Shown piece by piece: positions 15-1,343 of a stretch of DNA of 64,000 bases. How positions within the stretch are numbered: position 1 is the stretch's first letter; each line of letters begins with the position of its first letter. Position numbers and translations under genes: made by a program. Source of the stretch: Spirochaetes bacterium RBG_16_49_21 (GTDB lineage Bacteria > Spirochaetota > UBA4802 > UBA5550); assembly GCA_001829495.1 (NCBI GenBank), contig MIBJ01000041.1:1-64000 (forward strand), in the 5' to 3' direction. Below the pieces are notes generated by a model that was not told the DNA's origin, searched no databases, and saw nothing but the letters and a program-made list of their open reading frames with translations.

Positions 15-1343
15 ATGCAATTTTCAGTCGCGTGCAGCTTTGATGACAGCCTGCTTGAAGGGCTTGCTCCCTATCCGGTTTATGAACTGTACGGAAAACT
101 GACATCGGATTATTTCGGCGGGGGAAGGCCGTCGTTCTATCTGCCGACGGTCGGGAAACATGAGCTGGCGGATTTTGTAAATAAGACGCATCAGAAGGGA
201 ATAGAATTCAATTATCTGCTGAATGCCTCCTCCATGGGGAACATGGAATACACTTCATACGGGCAGAGAGAGATCAACCGGCTCCTGGGGTGGCTCAATG
301 AAATCAATGTCGATTCCCTGACCGTGGCGAACGTGTTTTTTCTGAAGCTCATAAAAAAGCGCTGGCCGCGCTTCAAGGTGCGCGTGAGCTCTCACCGCTA
401 TACCGACAATCCGCGGAAAATACGATTCTGGAAGGATGCGGGAGCTGACTGCCTCGTCATATCCGAAGTGAACATCCACCGCGAGTTCAAAATCCTTGAG
501 GCCATGAGAGAGGCCGCCGGCGACGGCATGGAGCTCCAGCTTATCGTCAACAACTGGTGCAGGCAGGACTGCGCTATTGCCGGGAATCACGCGGTCGGAT
601 TATCGGTCGCCTCCCAAAAAAAATCAAAGGGGTTTCCGCTTGATTTCTGCTCGCTCTACTGCAACCATATGCGGCTCGACGAGCCGGTACATTATATTCG
701 CGCCAACTGGATCAGGCCCGAGGATATCCACATCTACGAAAAGCTCGGATACACCCGGTTCAAGATCGTCGAGCGGAATACGCCGACCGCGATTCTGCTC
801 GAGCGGGTCAAGGCGTATCATGACCGGAGATATGACGGAAATCTCCTCTATCTTTTTCAGAATTACGCGTATCCCCTGGATAAATTTTCCCTGCGGGATA
901 AAGACGCTTTTTCGCGCAAGCGCATGCTTAAATATTTTATCAAGCCCAAAGCGGTCAACCTCCTCAAGTTTTTAAAGGTCGTAAAATTCGGGGATAAGGG
1001 GAGCGTCCTGTTCCCCCTGCGGGGGAGCAATCCGGTCTATATCGACAACAGAAAACTGGACGGATTCATTGATCATTTTCTGAAAAACAGCTGTGCGTCC
1101 AAGGATTGCGACCGGTGCGGGTACTGCCACCGGTGGGCAAAGAAGGCCGTGAAGATCGATCCGGCCTGGAGGCAGGAGATGGGTCTGATATACGATGAGC
1201 TTCTGGACGAGATCTATTCCGGCGGGTTCTGGGAAGGATATCTCGACACGATAAAAAAGATGGCGTCGAACAAGAACGGCGAGGGGCGTGAGATATTCAG
1301 CGATATCAAGCATTTTGCCAGAATCCTCAAGGCCATGTCTTAG
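15..1343 (+). CDS. Peptidase U32 family protein (UbiU/UbiV/RlhA-like superfamily)
   Basis: ORF 442 aa with RBS GGAGG just upstream. U32-like 'ISEVNIHREFKILEAMRE...LIVNNWCRQDCAIAGNH...FCSLYCNH' with CX3C...CX3C cysteines and a C-terminal CX4CX2CX2C cluster. Confidence 0.8.
   Translation: MQFSVACSFDDSLLEGLAPYPVYELYGKLTSDYFGGGRPSFYLPTVGKHELADFVNKTHQKGIEFNYLLNASSMGNMEYTSYGQREINRLLGWLNEINVDSLTVANVFFLKLIKKRWPRFKVRVSSHRYTDNPRKIRFWKDAGADCLVISEVNIHREFKILEAMREAAGDGMELQLIVNNWCRQDCAIAGNHAVGLSVASQKKSKGFPLDFCSLYCNHMRLDEPVHYIRANWIRPEDIHIYEKLGYTRFKIVERNTPTAILLERVKAYHDRRYDGNLLYLFQNYAYPLDKFSLRDKDAFSRKRMLKYFIKPKAVNLLKFLKVVKFGDKGSVLFPLRGSNPVYIDNRKLDGFIDHFLKNSCASKDCDRCGYCHRWAKKAVKIDPAWRQEMGLIYDELLDEIYSGGFWEGYLDTIKKMASNKNGEGREIFSDIKHFARILKAMS

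Follow-up and report, generated by a model that had tools for sequence, protein, structure and literature searches.

Enzymes of the U32 family known as oxidases (UbiU/UbiV, TrhP and RlhA) typically carry the cysteine pattern CX6CX15CX3C (PMC11574389), and they have been connected with prephenate: TrhP needs prephenate in vivo, RlhA is linked to it (PMC6599085), and according to a review prephenate has been reported as the oxygen source in UbiUV (PMC11574389). The dependence of sterol synthesis on O2 is attributed to squalene epoxidation, and steranes are taken to indicate oxygen and eukaryotes. To our knowledge, there is no described oxidosqualene route that works without an O2-dependent squalene epoxidase (SE). 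Wei et al. (2016) found no anaerobe with an oxidosqualene cyclase (OSC) and went no further than allowing that an alternative for anaerobes might yet come to light (PMC4919349); our own search of the open-access PMC literature returned nothing relevant joining U32 or UbiU to squalene or OSC. Here we analyse a window, the first 64,000 nucleotides of a contig of Spirochaetes bacterium RBG_16_49_21, in which a U32-family gene directly precedes an OSC gene, and we argue from genome data that its product likely takes the place of squalene epoxidase.

A U32-family protein encoded next to an oxidosqualene cyclase

As shown in Table 1, the window opens with the U32 gene, whose ATG start is preceded by a strong ribosome site, GGAGG, at positions 3-7. 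The contig starts at base 1 of the window, so the region upstream of the gene is missing; in two relatives a TetR-like gene lies there in divergent orientation. In a profile search the protein scored above the Pfam U32 cut-off of 22.4 bits, the match covering only 67 residues (86-152), and all 60 aligned homologues matched the same profile. The AlphaFold model, built with homologues, reached a pLDDT of 93.4, and its best PDB fold match was the U32 structure 5d88 (TMt 0.74), which a profile search with the protein likewise reached (E 2e-18). With a score above the gathering cut-off and a U32 TIM-barrel fold, the protein is a member of peptidase family U32. The initial annotation had described this open reading frame with paired CX3C motifs and a C-terminal CX4CX2CX2C, which held; it had also placed a cyclase 19 bp downstream, which we correct to 18 bp (1344-1361), the cyclase type being corrected to OSC.

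The cyclase scored 727 bits on TIGR03463, below the curated cut-off of 851, and met the broader squalene/oxidosqualene cyclase model TIGR01787 (608 vs 322.7). It matched human lanosterol synthase with an E value of 6e-182, and in the PDB comparison lanosterol synthase gave 610 bits versus 147 for bacterial hopene cyclase. The equivalents of D455, C456, C533, H232, Y503, W581 and F696 (human numbering) are all kept, and Tyr/His/Ile at human positions 381/449/453 is the cycloartenol-synthase combination. Identity as a squalene-hopene cyclase was ruled out by a TIGR01507 score of 244 bits against a cut-off of 431 and by the presence of SDCTAE with no DXDD acid motif. We conclude that the cyclase encoded in the window is a genuine OSC bearing a cycloartenol-synthase signature rather than a squalene-hopene cyclase.

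Two further genes of the window deserve mention. The DUF116 Cys-rich protein accompanies idi2 and the polyprenyl synthase in four of four spirochaetes, even where the gene order has changed. An extended SDR at 54805-55815 on the minus strand has a 3Beta_HSD match of 55 bits and may be either a sterol C-3 dehydrogenase or a sugar epimerase.

Table 1. Positions in the window of the U32 gene, its cysteine motifs, the OSC gene and the downstream isoprenoid operon
Feature	Position	Strand	Remarks
U32-family Fe-S protein gene	15..1343	+	442 aa; PF01136 35.1 bits; U32 clade 100/100; AlphaFold model
C182-X3-C186-X25-C212-X3-C216, proposed [4Fe-4S] site 1	558..662	+	cluster inferred from UbiU/UbiV
C360-X4-C365-X2-C368-X2-C371, proposed second Fe-S site	1092..1127	+	invariant in clade and sister group
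Oxidosqualene cyclase (OSC)	1362..3386	+	674 aa; cycloartenol-synthase-type Y381/H449/I453 (human LSS numbering)
DCTAE motif with catalytic acid D412 (human D455), predicted to protonate the epoxide	2595..2609	+	
dxs, DXP synthase	3450..5354	+	TIGR00204 762 bits
Polyprenyl diphosphate synthase (short-chain type)	5354..6379	+	PF00348 217 bits
Type 2 IPP isomerase (idi2)	6431..7477	+	TIGR02151 419 bits
DUF116 Cys-rich protein	7493..8035	+	PF01976 106 bits; adjoins idi2 in relatives too
dxr, DXP reductoisomerase	8043..9215	+	TIGR00243 506 bits

The U32 protein belongs to a separate clade with its own cysteine motifs

In the phylogenetic tree, all 54 U32 proteins from OSC genomes fell into one clade (100/100), with UbiU, UbiV, RlhA and TrhP outside it, beyond a 99/99 branch. 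A second U32 of the window genome (G000:C37, 267.8 bits) also lay outside and grouped with the E. coli enzymes. Orthology to TrhP, RlhA or UbiU/UbiV was ruled out, since these enzymes stand together on the far side of the 99/99 branch. The window protein is thus a U32-family member other than UbiU, UbiV, TrhP and RlhA, and likely represents a new subfamily working like U32 oxidases, a function that is inferred.

All 53 clade members compared keep seven cysteines (C182, C186, C216, C360, C365, C368 and C371), and these seven are likewise invariant in 13 homologues outside the clade. C212 is a cysteine in 44 of the 53 and Ser, His or Trp in the remaining nine, and C7 is a cysteine in 50; the three invariant cysteines of the first site may therefore leave an open iron site, a possibility that is inferred. 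The CX6CX15CX3C pattern of U32 oxidases is not met by the window protein, which has CX3CX25CX3C together with the C-terminal CX4CX2CX2C. Binding of a [4Fe-4S] cluster and oxygen insertion without O2 rest on the invariant cysteines only and are inferred from sequence alone.

The U32 proteins of SE-containing genomes at loci L061-L072 (for example L061, 10001-11449) group in a subclade whose C-termini are extended by about 50 aa, the extension of L061 being Cys-rich.

U32 genes of this clade occur with OSC

Among 59 relatives, U32 (72-83% identity) and OSC were found in the same four genomes, the window's included, and were adjacent in each; in one of them (G010) the start of OSC comes after U32 at the contig end. 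Scanning a wider collection for U32 gave 80 loci. Of L034-L084, a set of 51 loci that includes many short contigs, 25 also contained OSC. Close U32 proteins (at least 52% identity) came from genomes with OSC, linked or unlinked, in 30 of 30 tested, versus 0 of 9 for distant ones (36-44% identity). In 284 Myxococcota, a close U32 was present in 12 of 36 OSC-containing genomes and in none of the 248 without OSC (Fisher 3e-12). The genomes analysed in this work are not independent and nearly all are MAGs; an independent-pairs test on the OSC tree gave a median p of 0.5, with too few informative pairs. The initial annotation had stated that its idea would be refuted by orthologues unlinked to cyclases or by tight grouping with the tRNA/rRNA hydroxylation U32 enzymes; neither was seen, as the orthologues are OSC-linked or occur only in OSC genomes and the protein falls outside TrhP, RlhA and UbiU/UbiV in the tree.

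Clusters of Myxococcota (e.g. L034, L037, L077) combine HMGS, MVA genes, FPP synthase, HpnC, HpnD and HpnE with U32 and OSC, and also hold chorismate mutase/DAHP synthase and a GGR-family flavoprotein. The window U32 shares 63-69% identity with the U32 proteins of clusters that contain HpnC/D/E. A GGR-family flavoprotein (family F8) was found in 12 loci, mostly adjoining U32 or OSC; since the sterol C-24 reductase Bsr of Myxococcota is a GGR-family protein (PMC12004948), its presence could fit a sterol-like end product, the identity of these proteins with Bsr not being established. U32 accompanies two divergent OSC classes whose active sites differ (YWYHI and VYAHV), so that its likeliest role is in their common step, oxidosqualene formation. 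Taken together, the genome evidence is strong, and a role of U32 together with OSC is very likely.

Two side observations concern other loci. In L034, L039, L041, L042, L049, L052-L054, L057, L060 and L081, a gene pair lies upstream of the U32-OSC cluster and may regulate it; one gene encodes a PAS/GAF histidine kinase, a domain assignment scanned for L042 alone, and the other is response-regulator-like. The distant U32 genes (L085, L086, L089, L095, L099 and others), which come from OSC-free genomes wherever this was tested, frequently adjoin family F3 (20 loci), which looks like a B12-binding radical SAM protein, possibly pointing to another U32 system; four loci from Omnitrophota and Desulfobacteraceae (L092, L093, L097, L100) have two superfamily U32 genes each, side by side in three of the four.

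U32 and squalene epoxidase are complementary

Since OSC requires oxidosqualene, an absent SE leaves a gap in the pathway. A family search with PF08491 found no SE in the window genome (G000) or in the three relatives with the U32-OSC pair (G001, G002, G010), while the same search detected SE in 43 of 78 OSC genomes. In the 36 OSC-containing Myxococcota, SE was present in 22 of the 24 genomes without U32 versus 5 of the 12 with it (p=0.0025), and it was found in 0 of 19 further genomes, chosen because U32 and OSC share a locus. OSC-containing genomes had SE, U32 or both, with only two exceptions, each with OSC on a truncated contig: in G117 it is a fragment on a 5.9-kb contig, and in G207 the contig stops within an OSC-HMGS-HpnE run that in the closest relative, G328, reaches U32. 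SE and U32 occurred together in 21 genomes, where U32 and OSC are mostly apart and many of the U32 proteins form one subclade. Such genomes resemble E. coli, which likewise keeps O2-dependent UbiIHF and O2-independent UbiUV (PMC10470549). A heme-copper oxidase was missing in 15 of 36 U32-only genomes versus none of 43 with SE (p=1e-6). From these data, which are good genome evidence without biochemistry, we infer that U32 likely replaces squalene epoxidase.

The spirochaetes themselves present two complications. No squalene/phytoene synthase or HpnC/D (PF00494) was found in G000, G001, G002 or G010 despite their OSC and isoprenoid operon, so scavenging of squalene has to be assumed. Moreover, the window genome contains a full-score COX1 (447 bits), which excludes a strict anaerobe; because this genome has a heme-copper oxidase, we conclude that the U32-OSC trait also occurs in probable facultative organisms.

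A gene for prephenate synthesis often adjoins U32

Chorismate mutase makes prephenate. At 38 of 52 loci U32 is directly adjoined by a DAHP synthase/chorismate mutase gene, the two reading frames frequently overlapping in an ATGA, and the two examples scanned matched the bifunctional model NF009239 with about 500 bits. In three Bacteroidota loci this gene lies downstream of U32 and is more divergent, and in G328 and G090 it adjoins OSC instead of U32. Neither in the distant loci nor in the spirochaetes was it seen next to U32; the window genome encodes an ordinary CM-prephenate dehydratase, the dehydratase part having been read from sequence. A search for a U32-chorismate mutase fusion established none; the genes abut or overlap. 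We regard this as moderate and indirect evidence which tips the balance towards prephenate as the donor, the need for it being inferred from the adjacent gene.

Proposed mechanism

The explanation we favour, and consider likely, is that U32 is a prephenate-dependent, O2-independent squalene epoxidase feeding the adjacent OSC. The genes, motifs, co-occurrence, synteny, complementarity with SE and separate clade on which it builds are shown; the substrate, donor, clusters and reaction are inferred, without biochemistry. In this view, U32 would make 2,3-oxidosqualene for OSC without O2, in place of the flavin squalene epoxidase, with prephenate donating the oxygen atom, as has been suggested for UbiU/UbiV, TrhP and RlhA. 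Activation or transfer of this oxygen would fall to a [4Fe-4S] cluster on C182, C186 and C216, with C212 or C7 as a possible fourth ligand, and the second cluster (C360, C365, C368, C371) would relay electrons. The oxygen would be placed on the terminal C=C of squalene, a step chemically akin to the attack of known U32 enzymes on sp2 ring carbons; D412 of OSC would then protonate the epoxide, and cyclisation would give a 3-beta-hydroxy triterpenol, probably of the cycloartenol/lanosterol type. The initial annotation had suggested, as an inference, that a tailoring enzyme oxygenates a terpenoid substrate or product anaerobically; such oxygenation is supported and fits the genome data, the function being inferred, and we would restrict the tailoring role to supplying the cyclase with its substrate, since SE is absent exactly where U32 is linked to OSC. 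Points against the epoxidase reading are the lack of PF00494 in the spirochaetes, COX1 in the window genome, the absence of a chorismate mutase gene next to U32 in the spirochaetes, the 21 genomes with both SE and U32, the non-independence of the genomes, and the PF04116 protein of some U32-only genomes.

Alternative explanations

It is possible, though unlikely, that U32 is an O2-independent tailoring hydroxylase acting on the cyclised triterpenoid, for example at a C-4/C-14 methyl or a ring position, with oxidosqualene supplied by an unrecognised enzyme. Gene neighbourhood and co-occurrence are equally compatible with this, and retention of SE beside U32 in 21 genomes is what a later step predicts. 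However, it leaves the absence of SE in U32-linked genomes unexplained, and U32 is common to two divergent OSC classes.

It is also unlikely that the spirochaete cyclase does not use oxidosqualene and instead accepts a different substrate, for instance a GGPP-derived or other polyprene that U32 has oxygenated. The missing squalene synthase (PF00494 in 0/4 spirochaete genomes) and an operon carrying polyprenyl synthase, idi2, dxs and dxr speak for it, but the OSC retains its catalytic and product-specificity residues, and the U32 is 63-69% identical to those of HpnC/D/E clusters.

Very unlikely is a U32 without a lipid role, hydroxylating RNA, a quinone or something else, its linkage to OSC being regulatory: all characterised U32 oxidases do target RNA or ubiquinone precursors (PMC6599085, PMC11574389), but this clade occurs only in OSC genomes and stands apart from TrhP, RlhA, UbiU and UbiV, and it is the separate U32 of the window genome that groups with the E. 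coli enzymes. Equally hard to sustain is another O2-dependent epoxidase, with U32 accessory: PF04116, the fold of the diatom alternative SE, is present in G000-G002 and 7 other U32-only genomes, and F8 recurs mostly beside U32 or OSC, but PF04116 is absent from 26 of 36 U32-only genomes, G010 included, no F8 turned up in the clusters of the spirochaetes, L041, L042 and L049-L054, and the GGR-family Bsr of Myxococcota is a sterol C-24 reductase.

Implications and comparison with known systems

A bolder reading of the epoxidase hypothesis, to which we lean only slightly in the absence of biochemistry, is a complete O2-independent bacterial route to 3-hydroxy sterol-type triterpenols, with prephenate oxygen introduced via U32. 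If true, steroid-skeleton lipids would need no molecular oxygen, and sterane biomarkers alone would be no proof of oxic conditions. The U32 family offers a concrete, testable candidate for anaerobic epoxidation; it would add the epoxidation of an alkene in a plain terpene to the oxygen chemistry of U32 enzymes, and the gene could serve to flag organisms that may produce triterpenols anaerobically.

With UbiU/UbiV the window U32 shares the fold, the Fe-S cysteines and, by inference, an isoprenoid-linked substrate, as well as an inferred standing as the O2-independent alternative beside O2-dependent flavin hydroxylases (PMC10470549). It differs in being a single chain with two Cys motifs of other spacing and in forming a separate clade, whereas UbiUV act as a pair, on an aromatic ring. 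With TrhP and RlhA it has in common the U32 domain and a prephenate link, here via the adjacent chorismate mutase gene (PMC6599085), but it lies outside their group and is linked to OSC rather than to RNA genes. Squalene epoxidase, a PF08491 flavin monooxygenase often near OSC in the genomes that have it, would catalyse the same proposed reaction; its fold, however, is unrelated, it needs O2 and FAD, and it is absent where U32 is linked to OSC. Finally, like the cycloartenol-type OSCs of Myxococcota, the window cyclase has every catalytic residue checked, but it sits in a spirochaete without a recognised squalene epoxidase or squalene synthase.
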